Source: Caryophanales bacterium
Lineage (GTDB): Bacteria; Bacillota; Bacilli; Exiguobacteriales; Exiguobacteriaceae
Direction of reading: 5' to 3'
Length of the DNA stretch: 23,496 nt
Assembly (NCBI GenBank): GCA_902362975.1
Contig: CABIYO010000039.1
Span: 1 to 23,496, forward strand
Shown here in pieces: positions 6,758 through 23,496 of this stretch (the first letter of the stretch is position 1; each line of letters opens with the position of its first letter). A program made the position numbers and the translations under genes. Under the pieces are notes generated by a model. That model saw only the letters and a program-made list of their open reading frames with translations, was not told the DNA's origin and made no database searches.

Positions 6758-8506
6758 TTATTCAACTACAGCTAAATCTTGAATCATATACAGATCGTAA
6801 TACGCCCCGCGACGACGCATCAGCTCTTCATGCGTACCCGTCTCCATGATTTGACCGTTATCCACGACGACGATTTGATCGGCGTCCGTAATGGTCGACA
6901 AGCGGTGGGCGACGATTAACGTCGTCCGTCCTTTAGTCAGACGGGCCAGCGAGTCTTGAATCATCGCTTCACTTTCTAAATCAAGCGCACTCGTCGCCTC
7001 GTCTAAAATCAAGATCGGTGGATTTTTCAAAAAGACACGTGCAATCGCAAGCCGCTGTTTCTGTCCACCAGACAATTTGACACCTTTCTCCCCGACCGGT
7101 GTCGCATATCCGTCCTGTAGTTTCGAGATGAACTCATGGGCGTTCGCTGCCTTGGCCGCCGCAATGACTTCCTCATCCGTCGCATCCGGTTTCCCCATTC
7201 GAATATTCATGGCGACCGATTCGCTGAAGAGGACCGAATCCTGCATGACCATCCCAATCTGGTCGCGGAGTGCACGTAATTTGAAATCACGCACATCGAC
7301 GCCGTCGATTTTGATGCTTCCATCCGTCACGTCATAGAAACGCGGAATCAAACTGACGAGTGTCGACTTCCCTCCGCCGGACATTCCGACAAACGCCACG
7401 CGTTCCCCGGAACGGATGTGAAGGTTCACATCGTTCAACGCTCGTGCCCCGTCCTGTTCATACGAAAAACTCACATGTTCAAGGTCGATTTTACCGGCTG
7501 TCGACAACGGGACGAACCCGTTCGGTTTCTCCTCGATATCATATGTCTCATCCAAGAACTCAAAGACACGGTCCATCGAAGCGACAGACTGCGTGAGTGT
7601 CGTCGCCGAGTTGACGAGACGACCGAGCGGCGCATAGAGTCGGTCGATATATGCGATGAACGCGACGAGCGTCCCGAGCGATACCGTTTCTTGAATGACG
7701 AGCCACGATGCCGTCGTGAAAATGAGGATCGGCGCGATGTCAGTGATCGTCGATACAACGACATACGTCTTGGCGTTCCAACTCGTATGTTTGAGTGCCG
7801 CGTTCAAGAAGCCACCGTTCTGTTGTTCGAACGCCTTGTTCTCATATGGCTCTAGCGCAAAACTCCGAATGACCGCCATCCCGTTGACGCGCTCTGTCAA
7901 ATGACCTTGTAGGTCAGCGAGTGCCGCCGACCGTTCACGCGTCAAGCGACGCAACCGTCCATAGAAATAGCGGACTGCGATCGCATAAAACGGAAGTGGT
8001 AAAATCGCGATCAGCGTGAGTTGCGGGTCAATCGTATACATGATCCCGATGGCGATAAGAATGGTAATCATGTCGAGCCAAATATTCATCAGACCGGTGA
8101 TGACGAAGTCTTTCGTCTGTTCGACGTCGTTGATGATCCGTGAAATGATTTGTCCCGTCTTATTGTTTGAATAATAGCGGAGTGACAACTTCTGGACGTG
8201 GTCGAATAACCGGTTCCGCACATCGAACAAGACACGCGTCGCGGCCCACTGCGCCAAATATTGACGCAAATACTCGATTGGCGGCTTGAGGACCAGGAAG
8301 ACGAAGAAAACGATGCTGAACAACCAGATGAGCGTTGTATAGTCCTGCCTCGGCGCATCGTCCGTCAAATAGTGATCGATGACATATCTATAAAGTAACG
8401 GTAATCCGAGCGGGATGGAAAACTTCAAAATCCCGACGAAAATGGTGAGGGCAATTTGTTTCTTATACGGACGAACAAACTGCAAATAACGTTTAATACT
8501 ACCCAT
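6758..8506 (-). CDS. ygaD: ABC exporter, YgaD-like (MsbA type)
   Basis: A half-transporter of 582 residues: six membrane helices (about 20-300) fused to a nucleotide-binding domain. Walker A GMSGGGKST is at 374-382, signature LSGGQ at 478-482, Walker B ILILDE at 498-503 with catalytic E503, and switch H534. All ATPase residues are intact, so a homodimer is expected. Substrate unknown; relatives export lipids or drugs. AGGAGG precedes the ATG. It follows ygaC, as in B. subtilis, but an intrinsic terminator lies between them. Confidence 0.9.
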   Translation of the reverse strand: MGSIKRYLQFVRPYKKQIALTIFVGILKFSIPLGLPLLYRYVIDHYLTDDAPRQDYTTLIWLFSIVFFVFLVLKPPIEYLRQYLAQWAATRVLFDVRNRLFDHVQKLSLRYYSNNKTGQIISRIINDVEQTKDFVITGLMNIWLDMITILIAIGIMYTIDPQLTLIAILPLPFYAIAVRYFYGRLRRLTRERSAALADLQGHLTERVNGMAVIRSFALEPYENKAFEQQNGGFLNAALKHTSWNAKTYVVVSTITDIAPILIFTTASWLVIQETVSLGTLVAFIAYIDRLYAPLGRLVNSATTLTQSVASMDRVFEFLDETYDIEEKPNGFVPLSTAGKIDLEHVSFSYEQDGARALNDVNLHIRSGERVAFVGMSGGGKSTLVSLIPRFYDVTDGSIKIDGVDVRDFKLRALRDQIGMVMQDSVLFSESVAMNIRMGKPDATDEEVIAAAKAANAHEFISKLQDGYATPVGEKGVKLSGGQKQRLAIARVFLKNPPILILDEATSALDLESEAMIQDSLARLTKGRTTLIVAHRLSTITDADQIVVVDNGQIMETGTHEELMRRRGAYYDLYMIQDLAVVE

Positions 8507-8523
8507 AATGCCTCCTGACTTAA

Positions 8524-8554
8524 GAAAAAAAGCGGAGATGAGGAATCATCTCCG
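8524..8554 (-). terminator. Terminator between ygaC and ygaD
   Basis: On the minus strand CGGAGATGA and TCATCTCCG form a 9-bp perfect stem with loop TTCC, followed by C and seven T. It overlaps the ygaC stop and ends only about 18 nt before the ygaD start, leaving no room for a separate promoter. Confidence 0.85.
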
Positions 8555-9088
8555 GTAACGTGCTTCGTATTCGCGATACCATTCATCGACGAATGTTGGG
8601 TTGAACGGCCCTTTCCGTCCTCGAATCCAGTTGATCAGTTCTTGCACGTTCTGCTTCAAGATTCGATCAATCGCTTTCGGATAATTCATCTCGCGACGAT
8701 GCCGTTCATATTCATCTTCATCTAAAATCGTATACGACATATCCGGGAACACCTTAATGTCCAAATCGTAATCGATATATTTGATGGCACGTTCTTCCCT
8801 ATCAAATGTAGTCGGCGAACCTAGATTACAGTAGTAGTAAATCCCGTCTTCGCGAATCATACAGATGACATTGAACCAATACTCAGATGAAAAGTAGCAA
8901 ATTGCCGGCTCTCGCGTTCTCCATTGCCGACCGTCTGACTCGCTGACCATAATGCGATCATTGAATCCGATCATATCCGTTTTTGACGACTGAAGGACGA
9001 GCGTTTCTTCCCAAACGCGATGCAAAGTTCCGTTGTGCTTGTAGCTCTGTATCTCGATTTTGCTACCTGCTTTGGGAAATAAGCTCAT
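8546..9088 (-). CDS. ygaC: YgaC-like DUF402 nucleoside tri/diphosphatase
   Basis: The 180-residue protein matches the DUF402/Ntdp family, whose characterised members hydrolyse nucleoside tri- and diphosphates in a metal-dependent way. Conserved text includes [13 protein letters not shown] and [13 protein letters not shown] with clustered acidic residues, then an acidic C-terminal helix. The length is normal. AAAGGAGGAG precedes the ATG. It has its own predicted promoter at 9133-9161 and lies before ygaD, as in B. subtilis. The enzyme role is inferred from the family. Confidence 0.85.
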
Positions 9089-12557: not shown

Positions 12558-13628
12558 TCATTTACTCTGCATTTTAAAACGTAAATACAGCTCGTTATAG
12601 TAAGCGTTCATGCGCTTCCCTAGGTTTTCATATACTTCAAGGTCTTGTGTCACTTCACGAGACGGGTAGAACCGTTCATCCGATGTGACTTCTTCATCCA
12701 AGAATTCGAGAGCCGCTTCGTTCGGTGTCGAGTATCCGACATAATCCGTGTTACGTGCTGCAATCTCAGCATCTAACATAAAGTCGATGAACTGATGTGC
12801 CCCGTCCACGTTTTGTGCCGTACTTGGGATGACGAGGTTATCAAACCAGAGATTCGTACCTTCTTCCGGAATGACATACGTCAGTTCTTCGTTCTCATAC
12901 ATGATTTCTGACGCATCCCCGGACCAGACGACGGCTGCCGCTGCTTCACGGTTCGCCATCAGCATTTTGATTTCGTCTCCGACAATCGCTTTGATGTTCG
13001 GCCAAAGCGTCGTTAACTTTTCTTCCGCCTCAATCAACTCATCTTTATTCGTCGTGTTGAGGGAATACCCAAGCGAGTTCAGGCCGAAGCCCATCACTTC
13101 ACGTGTCCCGTCCGCAAGGAGAATGTCGTTCTCGAGCGGCATTTCCCATAGGTCGTTCCATGAAGTGATCTCACCATCGGCTAGTTCAGGATTGTAGACG
13201 ATCCCGACCGTGCCCCAGAAATAAGGAACCGAGTACTTGTTACCCGGGTCGAACGATTTATCGAGGAAGCGCGGATCGATATTATCAAAGTTTTCGAGTT
13301 TATCGTAATCGATCGGGAGAAGGAGATTCTCCTCTCTCATCTTACTGATCGCATAATCGGATGGAACGGCGACATCAAAGGCCGTCCCGCCTTGCTCAAT
13401 TTTCGTGAGCATCGCTTCGTTCGAGTCGAACGTTTGATAAACGACCTTCAACCCGCTCTGTTCTTCGAACTCACTAATCAATTCTTCATCGATATAGTCT
13501 CCCCAGTTGTAGACGACCAGTGTGTTGTCGCCGCCGAATCCTTGCGCAGCATTCAGTTGCTGAATCCAAAGAAGGAGACCAAAGCTGACAATCAATGGCA
13601 CAGCCAATATGATGACTAGTTTTTTCAT
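12558..13628 (-). CDS. potD: Polyamine-binding protein PotD
   Basis: This extracellular binding protein of 356 residues captures spermidine or putrescine for PotABC. After one N-terminal hydrophobic segment (about 3-22) comes LVVYNWGDYIDEELISEFE, the usual start of mature PotD-type proteins, then FDVAVPSDYAISKM and VPYFWGTVGIVYNP. No cysteine is found near the N-terminus, so it lacks the lipobox normal for Gram-positive binding proteins and is probably held by an uncleaved helix or is secreted. It overlaps potC by ATGA and is last in the operon. Confidence 0.9.
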   Translation of the reverse strand: MKKLVIILAVPLIVSFGLLLWIQQLNAAQGFGGDNTLVVYNWGDYIDEELISEFEEQSGLKVVYQTFDSNEAMLTKIEQGGTAFDVAVPSDYAISKMREENLLLPIDYDKLENFDNIDPRFLDKSFDPGNKYSVPYFWGTVGIVYNPELADGEITSWNDLWEMPLENDILLADGTREVMGFGLNSLGYSLNTTNKDELIEAEEKLTTLWPNIKAIVGDEIKMLMANREAAAAVVWSGDASEIMYENEELTYVIPEEGTNLWFDNLVIPSTAQNVDGAHQFIDFMLDAEIAARNTDYVGYSTPNEAALEFLDEEVTSDERFYPSREVTQDLEVYENLGKRMNAYYNELYLRFKMQSK

Positions 13629-14419
13629 CGTCTAACCTCCTTTGATCCTCGTTGCGCCAACACATAATATCCGATGACAAGGATGAGCGTGAAGAGGAAC
13701 AGAATCGCAGACAACGCATTGATTTCAAGCGAGATACCTTGACGTGCCCGCGAATAAACTTCTACGGCGAGCGTCGTGAAGCCGTTTCCTGTCACGAAGA
13801 ATGTGACAGCAAAGTCGTCTAACGAATAGGTGAGTGCCGTGAAGAAACCGGCAAATACCCCCGGCGTGATATATGGCAGAATGACTTTCGTCAATACGTC
13901 CCACGTGCTGGCACCTAGGTCACGTGACGCATCAATCAACGTCGGACTCATCTCTTGGAGTTTTGGCAACACCAAGATGACGACAATCGGAACCGAGAAG
14001 GCGATGTGCGACAAGAGGACCGAGTAAAAGCCTAACTGAATCCCAAGCATCGTGAAGAGAATCAAGAAGGAGGCTCCAATGATGACGTCCGGGCTCACGA
14101 TTAAGACGTTGTTCAATGATAAGAGCGACGTCTTCGTATACTTTTGTTTCGCCGTATAGATGGCGAGTGCCCCGATGACACCGAGCACGGTCGAAATCGT
14201 CGCTGAGAGCAGCGCGATGACGATCGTATTCAAGACGATGACGAGAAGTCTCGTGTCCGTGAAGAGCGCCTTGTACCATTCGAGGGTGAACCCTTCGAAG
14301 TTACTCATCGTTCCACCACTGTTGAATGAGTAGAAGACCAAATATAGAATTGGCGCATATAAGATGAAGAACACGGCCGCCAAGTATAAGTTTGATAATT
14401 TGAATCGTTTACGTTTCAT
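13625..14419 (-). CDS. potC: Polyamine ABC transporter permease PotC
   Basis: A 264-residue inner-membrane permease with about six helices. The EAA loop that docks on the ATPase is visible as [20 protein letters not shown]. The start overlaps the potB stop (ATGA) and the stop overlaps the potD start in the same way, so the four genes are translationally coupled. It should pair with PotB to form the channel. Confidence 0.92.
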   Translation of the reverse strand: MKRKRFKLSNLYLAAVFFILYAPILYLVFYSFNSGGTMSNFEGFTLEWYKALFTDTRLLVIVLNTIVIALLSATISTVLGVIGALAIYTAKQKYTKTSLLSLNNVLIVSPDVIIGASFLILFTMLGIQLGFYSVLLSHIAFSVPIVVILVLPKLQEMSPTLIDASRDLGASTWDVLTKVILPYITPGVFAGFFTALTYSLDDFAVTFFVTGNGFTTLAVEVYSRARQGISLEINALSAILFLFTLILVIGYYVLAQRGSKEVRR

Positions 14420-15237
14420 CGACGCACCGCTCCTTTCGCACCCCAGTCACGTGTGACGACCATGACAAGAACCATCGCCAAGATGAGGAAGACGGCAATC
14501 GTCGAGCCCATTCCCCAGTTTTGTGTGACAAGGAATTGTTGTTCAATCGCTGTACCGAGTGTGATGACTCGGTTCCCGGCGATGAGTCGGGTGATCATGA
14601 AGAGCGATAATGCCGGAATAAAGACGATTTGAATCCCTGACTTGACGCCGTCAAGCGTCAACGGGAAGATGACACGTCGGAATGTCGTCCAGTTCGATGC
14701 ACCTAAATCACGGGATGCGTAGACGAGTGATGGCGGTAACTTCTCAATGGCGTTGTAGATTGGCAAAATCATGAACGGGATGAAGATGTATACCGAAACA
14801 AAGACGAAACTGAAATCGGTGAATAGAATCTGTTTCGTCCCAATACCGATGGCTTCTAAAAATTGATTCGTAATCCCGTATGTCCCAAAAATTCCAAGGA
14901 ACGCATACGCCTTTAACAATAAGTTAATCCATGACGGCAGCAAGATAAGTAAGAGCCAAAGCTGTTTATGCTTCGTCTTCGTCAACAAATATGCCGTCGG
15001 ATACCCGACGAGTAACGAGAAGAACGTAATGAGGAACGCATACCAGAACGACGAGAGCGTCATCGACAAATACGTCGACGTGAAGAACGTCTGATAGTTT
15101 TCTAAACTCAAGTTCCCATCGATATCAAAAAATGAGTAGTAGACGACGAGGACGAGTGGTGCGATGACGAACAAGGCAATCCAAATCCAATAGGTCGTCA
15201 AATATACCGTCTTTGCGGTCTGATTAGTTTGATTCAT
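14416..15237 (-). CDS. potB: Polyamine ABC transporter permease PotB
   Basis: A 273-residue permease with about six helices and the EAA loop [20 protein letters not shown]. The start is ATG at 15237 (MNQTNQTAK), with GAGGAGG 7 nt before it. An 18-codon longer frame exists but lies within potA and lacks a site. It overlaps potA by 14 nt. Confidence 0.92.
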
Positions 15238-16330
15238 GAGGGACCTCCTCGTAGGATTCGAGACGACGGTCAAATTCTTCTTCTGTTTCACCTAGTCGCA
15301 TGACGTGAATCGCTTCTTCGTCAAACGTCAATCCGATTTTTGATCCGACGATTGATTTCTTCGTCGAGTGGACGAGCCATTCGTTTCCTTCTTGGTCATA
15401 ACAGCAAATCTCGTAGTGGACACCTCGGAACAATTGAGAATCGACGTCGACAACGAGTTTCGCTGCATCGACCGATGTCATCTCTAAGTCTTCCGGACGA
15501 ATGATGACCTCAACTTTTTCATTGCGATCAAATCCTTGGTCGACACAGTCAAACGTTTTACCAGCAAACGTGACGATATTGTCTTCCGGCATGACACCCG
15601 GCACGATATTCGATTCACCGATAAAGTCTGCGACGAAACGGTTGATCGGTTCATCGTAAATATCAGTCGGTGTCCCACTCTGAACAATTTTCCCGTTGTT
15701 CATGACGAAAATCACATCTGACATGGCGAGCGCCTCTTCTTGGTCGTGTGTGACGAAAATAAAGGTAATGCCAAGACGCTGTTGTAACTCACGAAGTTCA
15801 TATTGCATCTCCGTGCGAAGTTTCAAGTCCAAAGCAGAGAGTGGTTCATCGAGGAGAATGACCTCCGGCTCGTTCACGATCGCACGCGCGATGGCGACAC
15901 GTTGGCGTTGTCCACCTGACATTTCATCAATCTCACGCGCCCCGTAGCCCTCTAAGTTAACGAACTTTAAAGCTTGCTCCACTTTCGCTTTCACATCTGC
16001 TTCTTTCATTTTTTTAATCCGGAGACCGAATGCGACATTCTCAAATACGTTTAAATGAGGAAACAGCGCATAATCTTGGAACACGGTATTCACTTGTCGT
16101 TTATTAGCCGGCACATCGTTGATTCGTTTCCCGCTGAAGTGAATATCTCCTTCGGTCGCATCGGTAAATCCGGCGATGAGACGCAAAATCGTCGTCTTCC
16201 CACATCCCGATGGACCGAGAAGCGTATAAAACTTCCCACGCTCAATCTCAAAACTAATATCTTCAAGGACGACTGTGTCGTCGTAACGCTTTGACACGTG
16301 GTCAAAGCGAATAATTGTCTCTGCATTCAT
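15224..16330 (-). CDS. potA: Polyamine ABC transporter ATPase PotA
   Basis: The 368-residue ATPase powers PotBC. Walker A is GPSGCGKTT (39-47). The signature is MSGGQ rather than LSGGQ, a common variant, and Walker B is [13 protein letters not shown]-terminal TOBE-like domain (about 280-360) is typical of the spermidine/maltose importer group. GAGGAGG precedes the ATG, 21 nt after the regulator stop. Confidence 0.94.
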
Positions 16331-16351
16331 GCTGTTTCCTCCTCTGTTGAC

Positions 16352-16891
16352 TTATAAATATGAATGGGTCGCGACGATGAGACATTCACTCTCTCCATCG
16401 TTATCGTTTACGAGTTGATGCGAATCCGAGGCGACATAATAAAGGGTTTCCCCTGTCTTGGCAAAATATGTGTGGTTCCCTAATTTCAAGGCGATTTTGC
16501 CGGACAAGACGTAAACGAGCGTCTCCGAACGCGAAGGCTCATATTGTTTGAACTCTCCATGTTTGAAAAATGTGACAAGGATTGGCTCCATCTCTTTTTC
16601 ATTCGATTCCGGGATGAGCCATTCTGTCCGATATTTACGTTCTTCATCTGTATAGATGGTGCGATCGTCAACGGTGTACACCACTTTTTGATTCAACTCT
16701 TCATCAAAAAACTCTTTCGGGGAACTCCCGAGAACATTCAATAAATCGAATAACGTTTCTAGTGAGGGAGAGCTTAAATCCCGCTCGATTTGAGAAATAT
16801 AGCCTTTACTCAAATCGGTACGTTCCGCCAGCTCCTCTTGGGTCAATCCTTTTTTGATCCGGAGCCGCTTAATGTTTTGACCTACTTCCAA
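16352..16891 (-). CDS. XRE-cupin regulator of the pot operon
   Basis: The 179-residue regulator has an N-terminal XRE helix-turn-helix (about 7-61, LTQEELAERTDLSKGYISQI) and a C-terminal cupin domain (about 105-175, ETLVYVLSGKIALKLG). Such two-domain proteins often control the adjacent amine or amino acid genes, and the cupin may bind a ligand. The start is TTG at 16891 with AAGGAGG 9 nt upstream; the frame extends to 16933, but that would bury the site. It is first in the operon, so it probably controls its own promoter and uptake of polyamines. Confidence 0.88.
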   Translation of the reverse strand: MEVGQNIKRLRIKKGLTQEELAERTDLSKGYISQIERDLSSPSLETLFDLLNVLGSSPKEFFDEELNQKVVYTVDDRTIYTDEERKYRTEWLIPESNEKEMEPILVTFFKHGEFKQYEPSRSETLVYVLSGKIALKLGNHTYFAKTGETLYYVASDSHQLVNDNDGESECLIVATHSYL

Positions 16892-16912
16892 AGACTGAAC
16901 GCCTCCTTCTTG

Positions 16913-16938
16913 TTTAGTGAAACATGAGTTCAACTAAA
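16913..16938. promoter_or_regulatory. Inverted repeat in the pot leader, possible operator
   Basis: TTTAGTGAAAC (16913-16923) and GTTCAACTAAA (16928-16938) are 11-nt arms agreeing at 9 positions around a 4-nt centre. The repeat lies between the predicted promoter and the regulator start codon, a place suited to autorepression. It could instead be a weak RNA hairpin. Confidence 0.45.
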
Positions 16939-17656: not shown

Positions 17657-17696
17657 CGAAAAAAAGAAAAAGACGAGACTGAGTACGTGACTCAGT
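17657..17696 (-). terminator. Possible rtcB terminator
   Basis: On the minus strand ACTGAGT and ACTCAGT form a 7-bp perfect stem that overlaps the rtcB stop. The T-rich run starts about 6 nt later, so termination may be incomplete and some transcripts may reach yfhH. Confidence 0.5.
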
Positions 17697-18870
17697 TCGC
17701 CTTGAAGTTGTAAAGTGGCTTGATGATTTGATTGATTCGAACGGTCGGTTCGATATAACGAACAATCTCTTTCATCGACTTATACACGAATGGTGATTCA
17801 TCGATTGTCGATGGGCGAACGGATGTCGACCAGACACCTTCCATCGAACGTTTGAATTCTTTGAAATCGACGCGTTTCCGCGCGGCCGAACGAGACATGA
17901 TCCGACCTGCGCCGTGTGGACCCGAGAAGTTCCAGTCTGGATTCCCTTTCCCCGTACAGATGAGCGAACCGTCTCGCATGTTCATCGGAATGATGACTCG
18001 CTCTCCTTCTTGAGCGGAGATGGCACCTTTTCGCAGGATCATCGCATCATGGTCGATATAGTTATGGACGGTATCGAATTGATCGACGATGTTCCAATGC
18101 ATCGCTTCGACGATCACATCCGTCATCGCACGACGGTTCGCCGCTGCATATTGTTGAGCGATGCGCACGTCATGCATGTAATCGTCCATATCTGCCCCCT
18201 CCACATAAGCCAGGTCTCGAAATGGTTTCCGTGACGCCCGCTCTGTTTCCAGATAAGCCGAGATGTCTTGTTGTCGACCTGAGACCTTCAAACGCTCAAT
18301 TTCTTCTTTTACATCATGTGTTTCCATCATGTGTTGAATCGCTCGCTCCTGATAGTGATCGGCAATCTGCACCCCAAGATGGCGCGAACCGGAATGAATG
18401 ACAAGAAACGTACGTCCCGATTCATCTCGGTTCACTTCAATAAAGTGGTTCCCCGAGCCGAGCGACCCGACCGAGCGCAAGGCTCGGTCGAGTTTATACG
18501 GCGCTCGCACCTCTTCTAATGGAAGTTCAGATGCGTATGGATGAACCTTCTCACGAATGTTCATTCCACTCGGAACCTGTTCACGAATGATGTCGTCGAG
18601 TCGTTGAAAATCGATCCGCTTGGCTTTGATCTCCGTACAAAGCATCCCACATCCTAAATCGACACCGACCAGGTTTGGCACGACTTTGTCTTGAATCGTC
18701 ATCGTCGTCCCAACGACCGACCCTTTCCCCGCATGCATGTCCGGCATGATCCGAATCGATGCCCCTTGTGTGAACGGTTGGTCGAGCAATGTTTCAATTT
18801 GATTCCGCGTCATATCATCGATTCGTTCGTTGAACACTTTAGCACGGTTATATTTCCCCTTGATTTCCAT
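17692..18870 (-). CDS. rtcB: RNA ligase RtcB
   Basis: RtcB joins RNA ends bearing 2',3'-cyclic or 3'-phosphate to 5'-OH, using GTP and manganese. The 392-residue protein has the metal ligands in DLGCGM (D71, C74), GSGNHF (N141, H142) and HSGSRHLG (H159), and GPHGAGR (H319), the site expected for the guanylated histidine. It is of the short bacterial type. No archease, RtcA or RtcR gene is visible. It starts 9 nt after bmrD, and its AGGAGG directly follows the bmrD stop, so it should be cotranscribed and translationally coupled with the exporter. The likely job is repair of tRNA, rRNA or mRNA cut by ribonucleases. Confidence 0.93.
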   Translation of the reverse strand: MEIKGKYNRAKVFNERIDDMTRNQIETLLDQPFTQGASIRIMPDMHAGKGSVVGTTMTIQDKVVPNLVGVDLGCGMLCTEIKAKRIDFQRLDDIIREQVPSGMNIREKVHPYASELPLEEVRAPYKLDRALRSVGSLGSGNHFIEVNRDESGRTFLVIHSGSRHLGVQIADHYQERAIQHMMETHDVKEEIERLKVSGRQQDISAYLETERASRKPFRDLAYVEGADMDDYMHDVRIAQQYAAANRRAMTDVIVEAMHWNIVDQFDTVHNYIDHDAMILRKGAISAQEGERVIIPMNMRDGSLICTGKGNPDWNFSGPHGAGRIMSRSAARKRVDFKEFKRSMEGVWSTSVRPSTIDESPFVYKSMKEIVRYIEPTVRINQIIKPLYNFKAN

Positions 18871-18879
18871 GTGACCTCC

Positions 18880-20925
18880 TTAACTGATAGCTTGTTGTTT
18901 ACTCTGTAATTCATGCATTCGGGCGTAGACACCACCATATTCGATCAGTGACTGATGAGTGCCTCGCTCAATGATTCGACCGTGGTCGAGAACGAGAATC
19001 TGGTCCGCTTCCCGGATCGTCGAGAGTCGGTGCGCGATCACAAATGTCGTCCGACCGTACGTGAGTGTTTTGAGCGCGTCTTGAATCAATGCCTCCGTCT
19101 CCGAGTCGACGCTTGCTGTCGCTTCATCGAGGACGAGGATGGCCGGGTCGAAGACGAGGGCGCGTGCGAAACTGATCAACTGTCGTTCTCCACTCGAGAG
19201 TGAAGCTCCACGCTCAATCACCGGCTCATCGATGCCTTGCGGTAGCTGCTTCACGAAACGGTCTGCCCCGACGGCCGTGAGTGCTTTCCATACCTGTTCG
19301 TCCGTAATCGTCTCATCGCCAAGCGTGACGTTCGTGCGAATCGTGCCCGTGAACAGGAACGGGTCTTGTAAGACGATCCCGAGATGGTCTCGTACCGCCT
19401 GCGTCGGTAGTTTAGTCACGTCCATGCCATCGATTCGAAGGACTCCGGACGAGGGGTCATAGAAACGCATGAGCAAGTTCATGATTGAACTCTTCCCGCT
19501 TCCGGTATGCCCAACGAGTGCGACCGTCTCACCAGGAGCTGCGTGCAGATCAATCTGTTGCAACACCGGTTTCCCTGCTTCATAACTGAACGTGACATCA
19601 TCAAAGACGACATCCCCTTTAAAGCGTGGAAGACGTTCCGATGAGACCGGTTCCCCTTTTTCGTCGAGCAGTTGGAACATCCGGTCGGCCGAGACGAGCG
19701 CTTGTTGGAGTGGTGACAATTGGTTCATAATCTGTGTCACCGGCTCAAAGATTCGCGAGACGTAGTCGATATACGCGTACAGAATCCCCAGTGTCAGGAC
19801 ACTTCCTGTACCGAGCGTTTGGACCCCGACAAACCAGATGAGCAAGGCGAGCGCCATGTTTCGGAAGAAGTTGACGAGGTTGTGGCTCATCAACGCATCC
19901 AATTTCAACAACTTCCGTCTCGTTTGGAAGTTGTCGCTGTTCTTCTCATTGAACTCGTCATAAACGAGATTTTCGCGGACGTATGATTGAATGATTGGCA
20001 TCGTTTGAATGCTCTCGTTCAACTGCGCGTTCATATCCGCGACGAGGGCGCGGACACGGAAGTTATTTTTTGTCGAGAAGCGTTGGAACAACTTGATCCA
20101 GACGATGACGACGGGAATGATAATGAGCGAGACGAGTCCTAGACGCACGTCTAGGAAGAACATCGCAATGAGTACCCCGATCATCATGACGACACTTTGG
20201 AAGACGCGAGCGAGCACTCCTAAATACAGGTCGCGTATCGTCTCGGTGTCATTCGTGACACGACTGACAATCTTCCCGATTGGTGTCTGATCAAAATAAC
20301 GTACCGGAATCGTTTGAAGATGCTTCATCACGTCAAGACGCATTGTCTTGACGATTTTATGCGCGGATCGTTGTAGGAGCATCTGTTGTCCCCAGTTCAA
20401 TCCGGCCGCAAATAGTAACAGGACGACGTACAATCCCGATAAAAGAAGGACTGCTCGTAAATCCGTTTGATAGAACTGGAATACGTCGGTCGACGAGAGC
20501 GCGACAATATTGTCATATGTCGCCGTTTCGTCTCCTCTTGAAATCGTCAGCACGTCGCCTTCGACTTCACGGACGCCTCCGCTTATAACAGCATCAGGTA
20601 CGAGATAGTACCCATCGGTCGTTTGGACGATTGAGACCGGCTGAATCACCTCTTGCCCATCTAGTCTCGTTTCTTTCTCATAAGAATCTCCATTAAAGGA
20701 AACACTACCGCCGGATTCGACTTGAACCCAGTCACGTTCGATGGCGACGATATGCTCATCGATAATGATTTTGGCGATATACGGTCCGGCCAGTTCTGCA
20801 CCGACCGCTAAAAAGAGTAATGTCAGTCCGAGGAAGATGGAGCGCTTCACTTGCTTGGCATAACCAACGAGTGAGCGGATCGTCTTCTTCCGGCGGACCG
20901 GATCTAATTCATATTGATCGATCAT
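18880..20925 (-). CDS. bmrD: Heterodimeric ABC exporter, large subunit (BmrD/YheH type)
   Basis: The 681-residue half-transporter has an extended region of about 90 residues between helices 1 and 2 (about 62-150), as in B. subtilis BmrD (YheH). Walker A is GHTGSGKSS (472-480), the signature is LSSGE (576-580, a variant of LSGGQ), and Walker B LVLDE keeps catalytic E601, with H632. With BmrC it should form one full and one degenerate ATP site. The start at 20925 is favoured by the upstream GGGGG; a longer frame begins at 20994 inside bmrC. It follows bmrC by 22 nt. Confidence 0.88.
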   Translation of the reverse strand: MIDQYELDPVRRKKTIRSLVGYAKQVKRSIFLGLTLLFLAVGAELAGPYIAKIIIDEHIVAIERDWVQVESGGSVSFNGDSYEKETRLDGQEVIQPVSIVQTTDGYYLVPDAVISGGVREVEGDVLTISRGDETATYDNIVALSSTDVFQFYQTDLRAVLLLSGLYVVLLLFAAGLNWGQQMLLQRSAHKIVKTMRLDVMKHLQTIPVRYFDQTPIGKIVSRVTNDTETIRDLYLGVLARVFQSVVMMIGVLIAMFFLDVRLGLVSLIIIPVVIVWIKLFQRFSTKNNFRVRALVADMNAQLNESIQTMPIIQSYVRENLVYDEFNEKNSDNFQTRRKLLKLDALMSHNLVNFFRNMALALLIWFVGVQTLGTGSVLTLGILYAYIDYVSRIFEPVTQIMNQLSPLQQALVSADRMFQLLDEKGEPVSSERLPRFKGDVVFDDVTFSYEAGKPVLQQIDLHAAPGETVALVGHTGSGKSSIMNLLMRFYDPSSGVLRIDGMDVTKLPTQAVRDHLGIVLQDPFLFTGTIRTNVTLGDETITDEQVWKALTAVGADRFVKQLPQGIDEPVIERGASLSSGERQLISFARALVFDPAILVLDEATASVDSETEALIQDALKTLTYGRTTFVIAHRLSTIREADQILVLDHGRIIERGTHQSLIEYGGVYARMHELQSKQQAIS

Positions 20926-20947
20926 GAGAGATTCCCCCTTTCCCGGA

Positions 20948-22672
20948 TTACTCCGTCTCTCCTTGTCGAATAAATTGTTCATAGTACCAACCATGTCGTT
21001 CCATCAGTTGGTCGTGGGTGCCGCGTTCGGTGACTCGTCCATCTTGAAGGACGAGGATTTGGTCGGCATGTGCCACCGCAGAAAGACGGTGCGCCACGAT
21101 AAAGGTCGTCTTCGCCTCACGGCTCGTGCGGACCGAATCGATTATGCGAGATTCCGTCTTCGCATCGACTGCTGAGAGTGAATCGTCAAGAAGCAGAATC
21201 TCAGGATTTTTCAGTAAGGCGCGTGCAATCGATAATCGTTGTTTTTGTCCACCTGACAGCATGACCCCTTGCTCCCCAACGACGGTATCGAGACCGTTCT
21301 CTAAGTGTTCGATGTCTGTATCGAACGCCGCGAGATGAATGGCTCTGTCGAGTGCTTCATCCGAAGCATCATCCACTCCGAAACAAATGTTATCACGCAC
21401 CGTTTTTGAGAATAAGAGATGCTCTTGTGACACATAGCCGCTCCAGCCACGGACCGTTTCAAGTTTAATGTCCGAGATTGGCACCCCGTTCACGAGAAGG
21501 GAATCGTCAATCGGATACTCCCGGAGCAATTGACGTAACAACGTCGTCTTCCCAGCTCCAGTCGGTCCGACAATTCCAATCGTCTCACCACGCGAGACGT
21601 GCAGGACGATGTCCTCTAACGACTCCCGATTCGCGTTTGGATAACGGAATGAGAGCGATTTGAAGGTGATCTTCTCCGGTACATCGATGTGAACCGTTCC
21701 GGTTGACGAAACGTCCGGTACCTCATTCATCGTTGTCTCAATCCGTTCCAAGCTCGCCGTTCCACGTTGGACGACGTTGATGAGTTCCCCGAAGGCATAC
21801 ATAGGCCAAATCAACATCCCTAAATAAATGTTGAAGGAAACGAGTTGACCGAGCGTGATGTCGTTCGTAAAGACGAGATATGTCCCGAATGAGAGTCCGA
21901 TCAAATAGCTGAGTCCAACGAGTAATTTGATAACCGGCTCAAACAAGACGTCGATTTTAGCGACATGCATGTTTTTCGCCATCACGTCATCCGTAATGTC
22001 ATCAAATTTTTTCGTATCCGCCTCTTCTTGGACGAAGGAGCGGACGACCCGAAGACCAGAGATGGATTCAACGACTTGGTCGTTCATCACGCCGAACGAA
22101 TCTTGGGCTGCCGTGAAACGTGTATGAATCTGACTCCCAAGTTTATTCATCGACCAGGCGAGAATCGGCATCGGCAAAAGTGCTGCGAGCGTCAACTTCC
22201 AATCGATGAACACGCCCATAATCGTCAAGGCGATGAGCGTCATGTTGAACGAGTCGACTAATGTCATGACCCCAAATCCCGCTGTCCGTTCCACTGCTTT
22301 TAAATCATTCGTCGCAAGTGCCATCAAGTCTCCTGTGCGATGTTGTTGATAGAAGCGCGGTGTTTGTTTGAGGAGGTGACCAAAGAAGCGACCTCTCAAT
22401 TTCTTTTCAAGTAAAAAAGCTGTCCCGAACAGTCGAGCAATCCACAAGTACGACAACACGTACGATAACACCATGATGCCGAGTAGCGACGATACAATCA
22501 GAATCAATCGCTCTGTCGTCAAACTTCCTTCACGAATCGCATCGATTGCCTGACCGATAATCCAAGGTGGTAGCATATCTACAACCCCTGTGATGATCAG
22601 TAAGATGATCGCAATCACATACGTTCGTTTCTGTCTTTTAATAAACCAATCCAATTGCTTAATCAGTTTCAT
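20948..22672 (-). CDS. bmrC: Heterodimeric ABC exporter, small subunit (BmrC/YheI type)
   Basis: The 574-residue half-transporter has six helices and an ATPase domain. Walker A is GPTGAGKTT (369-377), signature LSGGQ (472-476), and Walker B LLLDD (493-497), in which Asp replaces the catalytic Glu. This marks the degenerate subunit of a heterodimer, partner to BmrD. The start at 22672 follows AAGGAGGAG with good spacing and shares ATGA with the end of the leader ORF. Drug substrates in B. subtilis include several ribosome-targeting antibiotics; the substrate here is inferred. Confidence 0.88.
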   Translation of the reverse strand: MKLIKQLDWFIKRQKRTYVIAIILLIITGVVDMLPPWIIGQAIDAIREGSLTTERLILIVSSLLGIMVLSYVLSYLWIARLFGTAFLLEKKLRGRFFGHLLKQTPRFYQQHRTGDLMALATNDLKAVERTAGFGVMTLVDSFNMTLIALTIMGVFIDWKLTLAALLPMPILAWSMNKLGSQIHTRFTAAQDSFGVMNDQVVESISGLRVVRSFVQEEADTKKFDDITDDVMAKNMHVAKIDVLFEPVIKLLVGLSYLIGLSFGTYLVFTNDITLGQLVSFNIYLGMLIWPMYAFGELINVVQRGTASLERIETTMNEVPDVSSTGTVHIDVPEKITFKSLSFRYPNANRESLEDIVLHVSRGETIGIVGPTGAGKTTLLRQLLREYPIDDSLLVNGVPISDIKLETVRGWSGYVSQEHLLFSKTVRDNICFGVDDASDEALDRAIHLAAFDTDIEHLENGLDTVVGEQGVMLSGGQKQRLSIARALLKNPEILLLDDSLSAVDAKTESRIIDSVRTSREAKTTFIVAHRLSAVAHADQILVLQDGRVTERGTHDQLMERHGWYYEQFIRQGETE

Positions 22673-22785
22673 GACTGATCTCCTCCTTCCGCCTTCCCCA
22701 TCCAAGCACGCAAAAAAGCGCACTCCACCTGATTGTGCAACCAATCAAATGAAGCGCGCTTGAAGTAGTCTTCAGTCTTTTGCAT
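22669..22785 (-). CDS. bmrB: Leader ORF of bmrCD (BmrB-like attenuator peptide)
   Basis: A 38-codon ORF begins MQKTEDYFKRASFDWL and ends GGDQS, with its stop overlapping the bmrC ATG (ATGA). The terminator hairpin (22717-22760) lies inside the ORF. B. subtilis bmrB is a similar short leader ORF upstream of bmrC whose translation controls attenuation. The ribosome site before the ATG is weak (only AGGGG about 20 nt upstream), which is the main doubt. I have no sequence alignment to B. subtilis BmrB; the identification rests on position, length and the overlapping terminator. Confidence 0.6.
   Translation of the reverse strand: MQKTEDYFKRASFDWLHNQVECAFLRAWMGKAEGGDQS
22712..22760 (-). terminator. 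Intrinsic terminator/attenuator inside the bmr leader
   Basis: On the minus strand a 19-bp stem (arms 22742-22760 and 22717-22735; 4 G-U pairs, no mismatches) with a 6-nt loop is followed by six T. It ends about 40 nt before bmrC. A small competing hairpin TGAAG/CTTCA lies just upstream (22762-22775), and the same TGAAG could pair with the terminator's 5' arm. Confidence 0.78.
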
Positions 22786-22832
22786 GGTCAGAGAAAGGAC
22801 ACTACCCCTATCCAGCTGCCAATGTCACGCAG

Positions 22833-22953
22833 GTGAACTACTCGCCACTTATTTGCTTCACAAATTGAAGGGGGAGCTTCTTGGGAAAACCATGCTTTTA
22901 CTAGCCACGATTGTTTACCAAGCTCACCGGGCAGTCCCTGCCCTGAATGGTTG
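22833..22953 (-). ncRNA. Putative omega RNA (guide RNA) scaffold at the right end
   Basis: In this family the RNA that guides TnpB is made from the 3' end of tnpB and the right end. Here I see a hairpin GGGCA-loop-TGCCC (22929-22943) and an imperfect right-end hairpin (about 22837-22875) before GTAGTTCAC. The guide would be the flanking DNA just beyond. Exact ends cannot be set by eye, and the RNA probably also extends into tnpB. Confidence 0.5.
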
Positions 22954-23496
22954 TCAGTCGGCCAACATCAACAGGTTGATGCTCGCGTTGATGTCACGGT
23001 CATGGTGCGCGCCACAGGCACACGTCCATTCGCGGACATCTAATTTTTCCTTCTCGCCTTTTGCTCCGCAAGAAGAACAGATCTGGGTCGATGCGAACCA
23101 GGGGTCTGCCTTGATAAGCGTCCGTCCGTAGAAGGTGCATTTGTATTCCAACTGTCGGACGAACTCGTACCAGCTGACATCCCCGATGGATTTCGCTACC
23201 TTGTAGTTCTTCATCATGTCCTTCGATGTCAATGTCTCCACGACGATGACTTGGTTCTCGTCAACGATCCGTCTCGACAGGTTGTGAAGGAAGTCCTGGC
23301 GGTGGTTGGCGATCTTTTCGTGTTTTTTAGCTAAAAGTAATTTGGCTTTTTCACGATTCTTGCTTCCGATCTTCTTGCGTGACAGCGCGCGCTGTGCCTT
23401 CTTGACCTTCGCTTCGGACTTCCGGAGGAGTCGGGGGTTGTCAATCTTCTCCGAGACCATCGCGTCGTTCGTCATGACGGCGAAGTGCTCCAGGCC
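22954..23496 (-). CDS. tnpB: TnpB RNA-guided nuclease (C-terminal part)
   Basis: The frame is open to the window edge, so the N-terminal half is missing. The visible 180 residues start with GLEHFAV, the text that normally follows the first catalytic Asp (just outside). Then come NPRLLRKSEAKVKKAQR, RRIVDENQVIVVETL (second RuvC acid, E), the zinc finger CSSC and CAC, and HDRDINASINL (third RuvC acid, D). Visible catalytic residues look intact. TnpB is a transposon-encoded RNA-guided endonuclease that promotes retention of the element. Confidence 0.9.
   Translation of the reverse strand, partial: GLEHFAVMTNDAMVSEKIDNPRLLRKSEAKVKKAQRALSRKKIGSKNREKAKLLLAKKHEKIANHRQDFLHNLSRRIVDENQVIVVETLTSKDMMKNYKVAKSIGDVSWYEFVRQLEYKCTFYGRTLIKADPWFASTQICSSCGAKGEKEKLDVREWTCACGAHHDRDINASINLLMLAD

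Follow-up and report, generated by a model that had tools for sequence, protein, structure and literature searches.

The window analysed here is a stretch of 23,496 nt (contig CABIYO010000039.1, positions 1 to 23,496 of the forward strand, assembly GCA_902362975.1) from a Caryophanales bacterium of the family Exiguobacteriaceae. It carries a minus-strand operon in which two ABC exporter genes, bmrC and bmrD, are followed by the RNA ligase gene rtcB. The exporter halves bmrC (20948-22672) and bmrD (18880-20925) were assigned from the positions of their open reading frames (ORFs), domain matches and best PDB matches, which are B. subtilis YheI for BmrC and YheH for BmrD (E 1.1e-204 in both cases). 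The two proteins are thus orthologues of the B. subtilis exporter halves and stand in the order of the bmrBCD operon. The third gene, rtcB (17692-18870), belongs to the RNA 3'-phosphate ligase family by ORF position, by a match to Pfam PF01139 (208.7 bits against a cut-off of 27) and by alignment with 1uc2. The motifs MPDxHxG, GxDxxCG, GSGNHF, HxGSRxLG and HGAGRxxSR align with that structure, with one motif region outside the alignment, and we take them to be the catalytic motifs of the metal site and of guanylylation. Among named records, the nearest is E. profundum PHM 11 (RtcB 97%). An earlier reading of the same DNA, made from the sequence alone (the sequence-only reading), had described these genes as a leader-attenuated efflux and RNA repair operon. 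The gene order and spacings that it gave are confirmed by the ORF coordinates, with all genes head to tail on the minus strand, a 4-nt overlap (ATGA) between bmrC and a small ORF upstream, 22 nt between bmrC and bmrD, and 9 nt between bmrD and rtcB. The rtcB ribosome site (AAGGAGG) sits on the bmrD stop, as had also been described. A separate rtcB promoter within bmrD, with no drug response, had been named as a finding that would speak against the operon, and a simple scan of bmrD upstream of rtcB showed nothing resembling a promoter. Downstream of rtcB lies a weaker terminator-like hairpin (17678-17696, minus strand; 7 pairs, 3 of them G-C). By eye, a hairpin with a T-rich stretch also follows rtcB in three of the four relatives compared. 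The fourth, locus L035, differs, and its spacer between rtcB and the DUF1811 gene (8180-8733) exceeds those of the other named relatives by about 0.5 kb and has a different sequence.

Judged by sequence comparison, the operon is a real gene arrangement conserved in its lineage. RtcB matches were found in 41 of 61 relatives, including 17 of the 19 genomes of the window's genus. The gene bmrD stands directly upstream of rtcB in all 16 genus loci with flanks and in G006 (17 of 17), so that 17 of the 19 genomes in the genus-level lineage have the pair. It also occurs in 12 of 12 named Exiguobacterium loci, which are largely the same genomes. The two genus genomes without rtcB are G002 and G011. 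About the last 20 nt of rtcB and the hairpin following it remain in G011, which indicates that the gene was lost there, and G002 retains no trace, fitting loss or an older state equally. The rtcB genes of G006 (L082 4544-5644) and of locus L040 (7001-8101) lack 25 codons in frame, near residues 186-206. In the sister genus, RtcB was found in 17 of 18 genomes (56-61% identity), and neither bmrC nor bmrD stands beside rtcB in any of the 16 loci with flanks (L017-L030, L110, L122). A LysR-like gene, identified by eye, precedes rtcB in the three sister-genus loci read, and bmrD of that genus is followed by the DUF1811 gene with no rtcB between them in five of five regions read. In the sister-genus genome G024 (contig C33, 19890-23594) the rtcB match is split, with about 2.5 kb between its two parts, as though an insertion had interrupted it. 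Among 250 Bacilli, RtcB was matched at E 1e-80 or better in 30 (12 of the genus, 8 of the sister genus and 10 others). No bmrC or bmrD match lies near the rtcB of the 10 others within flanks of at most 1.5 kb, one of them cut by a contig end, and bmrD-rtcB adjacency is found in none of 7 other Bacillota loci. The linkage is, on this comparison, lineage-specific, because the pair is absent from the sister-genus loci and the 10 other Bacilli; it is old in one lineage and seen nowhere else in the sample. The gene-order survey proposed with the sequence-only reading thus had a divided outcome, with the pair kept in the genus and not found in the sister genus or other Bacilli. In a tree of 39 RtcB rows both Exiguobacterium genera group together (97/97), with one outside row (L113) inside the group. 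Given this grouping, relocation of rtcB is likelier than its transfer from a distant source.

A leader ORF with a terminator had been placed immediately ahead of bmrC, and the terminator part of this description holds. A strong terminator-like hairpin followed by a T run (22716-22761, minus strand; 20 counted pairs in the scan) lies between the leader start and bmrC, as in bmrBCD-type operons. It is the longest of ten terminator-like sites in the region, a number not in excess of shuffled sequences (7.0, standard deviation 2.6). Across the 19 genus relatives 94.2% of 380 cells are paired, with no pair changed on both sides, and an Rfam gathering scan of the window returned no family. The small ORF that had been taken for the leader (22669-22785, minus strand) is probably spurious as a leader peptide, because it has no ribosome site and neither its end nor its frame is conserved. 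It lacks a Shine-Dalgarno sequence, and TGTCCTTTCCCTGACC precedes it in all 19 relatives. Its counterparts overlap bmrC in 11 relatives, stop early in 3 and run past the bmrC start in 5, and the middle is read in different frames. The original proposal of a BmrB-like leader spanning its own terminator could draw on the ATGA overlap with bmrC in the window and on B. subtilis, where bmrB is described as containing its terminator (PMC4191407). Set against the ribosome site missing throughout and the drifting ends and frames, it is very improbable.

The relatives carry a leader elsewhere. All 19 genus genomes have a TTGACA site, judged by eye to be the leader promoter, and behind it a GAGGAG-type ribosome site and a leader ORF of 22-23 codons. 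The C-terminal end of this ORF, TSYGYSYLTA, is constant in all 19, and the first half varies with in-frame indels. The ORF ends 144-152 nt before bmrC and ahead of the terminator, which therefore does not lie inside the leader coding sequence as it does in B. subtilis bmrB. The sister genus has a different leader ORF, for example MKKPIGFTHIQQLNTTETLEHV, in the same place behind TTGACA (11 of 11 loci compared, from a set of 18 genomes). A leader ORF with its ribosome site upstream of the terminator is thus found in all 19 relatives and not in the window, where the last 8 nt (CT GCG TGA, 22825-22832, minus strand) are all that remains. As a sensor of the operon in the window strain, the ORF first named is not supported; the relatives' leader lies upstream of it and is cut here by an insertion sequence (IS).

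This element had been missed in the sequence-only reading. The minus strand from 22833 to 23496 holds the 3' part of a TnpB-type IS200/IS605 element, recognized by matches to Pfam PF07282 and PF01385 and, above cut-off, to NCBIfam guided_TnpB. It consists of a part of the tnpB coding sequence (22954-23496, identified by TnpB domain matches), which runs off the window together with the start of the RuvC domain, and of a non-coding right end shared with other copies (22833-22953). In relatives, more than 30 matches to the IS part have query base 664 (window 22833) as their common end. Twelve genus genomes resume at query base 665 (22832), upstream of bmrC, and six more at 675 or 677. Because IS copies end at 22833 and homology to the relatives' leader resumes at 22832, the element lies inside the leader ORF, and the insertion point falls between the first and second base of a leader Thr codon. 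Among 19 IS copies read at the right end, 18 end at the same base, and L107 ends a base earlier and differs in its last base. The left part of 18 copies breaks at TTTAA in 7 and has no readable end in the other 11. In the leader ORF of the nearest relatives, a TTTAA stands at the very point where window homology resumes. An assembly chimera was considered and set aside, as the junction coincides precisely with the IS right end and with this TTTAA site, the pattern that a true insertion would give. A plasmid search with 22700-23496 gave no match. The possibility that TnpB had been exapted as an RNA-guided repressor of the operon was likewise set aside, as the multiple copies and the shared right end fit ordinary transposition. 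With its TnpB C-terminal domains, common right end and TTTAA at the readable left ends, the element agrees with IS200/IS605 elements carrying TnpB. It is an ordinary multi-copy element, of which the landing place alone is notable. TnpB guide RNAs are known to continue past the element's right end. If the TnpB were active, a guide reaching beyond the right end here would match the intact leaders of sister strains carrying TTTAA, as may be expected from general TnpB biology.

Folding of the relatives' leader region points to four successively exclusive pairings, namely H1, H2, an antiterminator and the terminator. H1 joins the last leader codons (region 1) to region 2, and H2 joins region 2 to region 3. 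Region 2 (GCAGCTGGATAGGGGTAG, 22802-22819, minus strand) is invariant in 19 of 19 genomes. Region 3 (22782-22798, minus strand) can pair with region 2 or, in the antiterminator, with the distal part of the terminator 5' half. In the nearest relative H1 is far stabler than in shuffled sequences (z -4.3, 1 of 300 as low). With the ribosome modelled early in the leader, H1 reaches at least 0.66 in 18 of 19 relatives, and in 14 of 19 the antiterminator attains 0.72 or more. Covering region 1 brings the antiterminator to 0.00 in all 19. Antiterminator helices 1 and 2 are paired in all cells and never vary within the genus. An H1-like fold is clear in the sister-genus genomes G029 and G035 and not in G031 (z -2.3 for G029, -0.1 for G031). 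For the window itself the predicted antiterminator is about 2e-5, and as folding predicts no antiterminator, induction through the leader is probably lost in the window strain. After the junction, three window bases differ from all 19 relatives, compared with 0-1 private changes per relative. One lies in region 3 (22792), and the other two fall within or next to the bmrC ribosome site (22682-22686, minus strand), which reads GGAGG in the window and GGGGG in the 19 relatives. These changes fit a changed constraint, in small numbers.

We suggest that bmrC, bmrD and rtcB form one transcription unit in the lineage, which would start at the TTGACA-type promoter and pass through the leader ORF before reaching the attenuator. 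Ribosomes running through or sitting on the last leader codons would cover region 1, leaving region 2 to pair with region 3 and allowing the terminator to form. Ribosomes held early in the leader, as drugs acting on the large subunit may do, would let region 1 pair with region 2. Region 3 would then be free for the antiterminator, and the exporter and RtcB might be made together. In the window strain the IS in the leader ORF separates the attenuator from the leader's promoter, ribosome site and region 1. Transcription of the operon is therefore predicted to end mostly at the terminator, and induction through the leader to be lost. Gene order, conservation in the lineage, the relatives' leader ORF and the exact junction are read from the sequence, whereas co-transcription, the identity of the ON fold, the drug response and silencing in this strain are inferred. 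Taken as a whole, with a lineage attenuator operon that includes rtcB, early stalling as the ON state and a split, uninducible allele in this strain, we see the chances of this model being right or wrong as even.

Several observations weigh against the model. The energy of H2 resembles that of shuffled sequences (z -0.5, 75 of 300 as low), as does that of the antiterminator (z -0.5 to -1.6; 93 of 300 as low in G001 and 19 of 300 in G012). Within the window's own clade even the early-ribosome model gives a weak antiterminator (0.01-0.72), with a value of 0.29 in G001, the nearest relative. In the window, H2 in the register of the relatives reaches just 0.10-0.12. When the transcript is extended by 6 nt the antiterminator falls to 0.00-0.34 in all 19 relatives, and a switch of this kind would have to be kinetic. 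No compensatory changes were found within the genus for H1, the antiterminator or the terminator, and because no pair changes on both sides, the case for these structures is one of energy and conservation. The loss of rtcB in G011 and its absence from G002 indicate that the link to bmrCD is not indispensable. The left side of the IS and its flank lie beyond the window end at 23496. Finally, blocking bmrB translation in B. subtilis is described as lowering expression and abolishing induction (PMC4191407), which does not match a leader that is ON when uncovered and makes a simple transfer of the early-stall parity doubtful.

Comparison with known systems places the locus closest to B. subtilis bmrBCD (yheJIH; Reilman 2014, PMC4191407), where lincomycin, erythromycin and chloramphenicol are described as inducing bmrCD through a translated leader. 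In both, the exporter halves are orthologous and ordered alike, bmrC is preceded by a terminator and by a leader ORF of the translated type, and there are alternative hairpins. They differ in that the leader of the Exiguobacterium relatives ends well before the terminator and has 22-23 codons, compared with 53 in the B. subtilis account. The rtcB gene in third position and the IS-cut leader of the window strain are further differences. In E. coli, agents that impair translation are described as inducing rtcBA, and cells that have lost Rtc as surviving tetracycline less well (PMC5175333, PMC12606134). An RtcB-family gene is thus tied to stress of the translation machinery there as it would be here. 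The E. coli genes are controlled by RtcR, described in these sources as a sigma-54 activator with a CARF domain, whereas the present operon, if the model holds, would use a transcription attenuator and a co-expressed exporter. Premature terminators ahead of ABC transporter genes are reported as frequent in predictions of such leaders (Naville and Gautheret 2010, PMC2965389). The text of that study names neither Exiguobacterium nor yheI, and its passages contain no link to rtcB. In the open PMC literature, as represented by titles and abstract openings, no description of rtcB in an efflux operon was found.

The position of rtcB could also have arisen by chance relocation behind bmrD, with no tie to drug stress, the gene being a cheap passenger or served by an undetected promoter. 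This would account for the absence of the pair from the flanked sister-genus loci and the other Bacilli, for the sister-genus order in which DUF1811 follows bmrD, and for the loss in G011, the absence from G002 and the shortened genes of G006 and L040. Against it stand the 9-nt spacing and the ribosome site on the bmrD stop, kept in 17 of 19 lineage genomes. The lack of a promoter-like site in bmrD in the simple scan and the response of E. coli Rtc itself to translation inhibitors (PMC5175333, PMC12606134) argue in the same direction, and we regard chance relocation as unlikely, while giving it more weight than the following alternative.

For the window strain, the IS itself might drive the operon, with transcripts of tnpB or of the right-end RNA entering bmrC and giving constant expression for which no leader is needed. 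The shared orientation of tnpB and the operon suits this reading, as do guide RNAs reaching past the right end and the bmrC ribosome site, where GGAGG replaces the GGGGG of all 19 relatives as one of the three bases differing from every relative. Three base changes are few, though, and such transcripts would meet an intact terminator with an antiterminator predicted not to form. A simple scan of the minus strand found no promoter-like site over 22716-23496, nor any between the IS end and bmrC. Constant expression driven by the IS thus appears improbable, and the attenuator model, with the operon of this strain cut off from its leader, is preferred.

Elsewhere in the window, another ABC exporter half (6758-8506; ABC_membrane and ABC_tran) stands apart from bmrCD. 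An HTH-cupin regulator, PuuR-like with a match below cut-off, adjoins ABC importer genes and an extracellular binding protein (12558-16933). This region is probably a polyamine-type uptake operon, the polyamine name being given by eye.

At the level of the lineage, it is plausible, and fits the Rtc biology of E. coli, that rtcB rides on a ribosome-sensing efflux leader, and control of both exporter and RtcB outputs by one leader is a sensible hypothesis. More tentatively, and with somewhat less than even confidence, we propose that an RNA ligase and a drug exporter are co-induced by an early-stall leader, through attenuation rather than RtcR, and that TnpB has disconnected the sensor in this strain while its guide RNA would match the leaders of sister strains. 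The locus also illustrates that an ORF picked by eye beside a terminator can be spurious, with the real leader missing from the strain. The split allele provides a natural contrast for locating the ribosome-sensing part of the leader. If the model is true, RNA repair in a Gram-positive lineage would be wired to the ribosome's own drug response, and the operon would offer a simple system in which the repair targets of RtcB under antibiotic stress could be sought.

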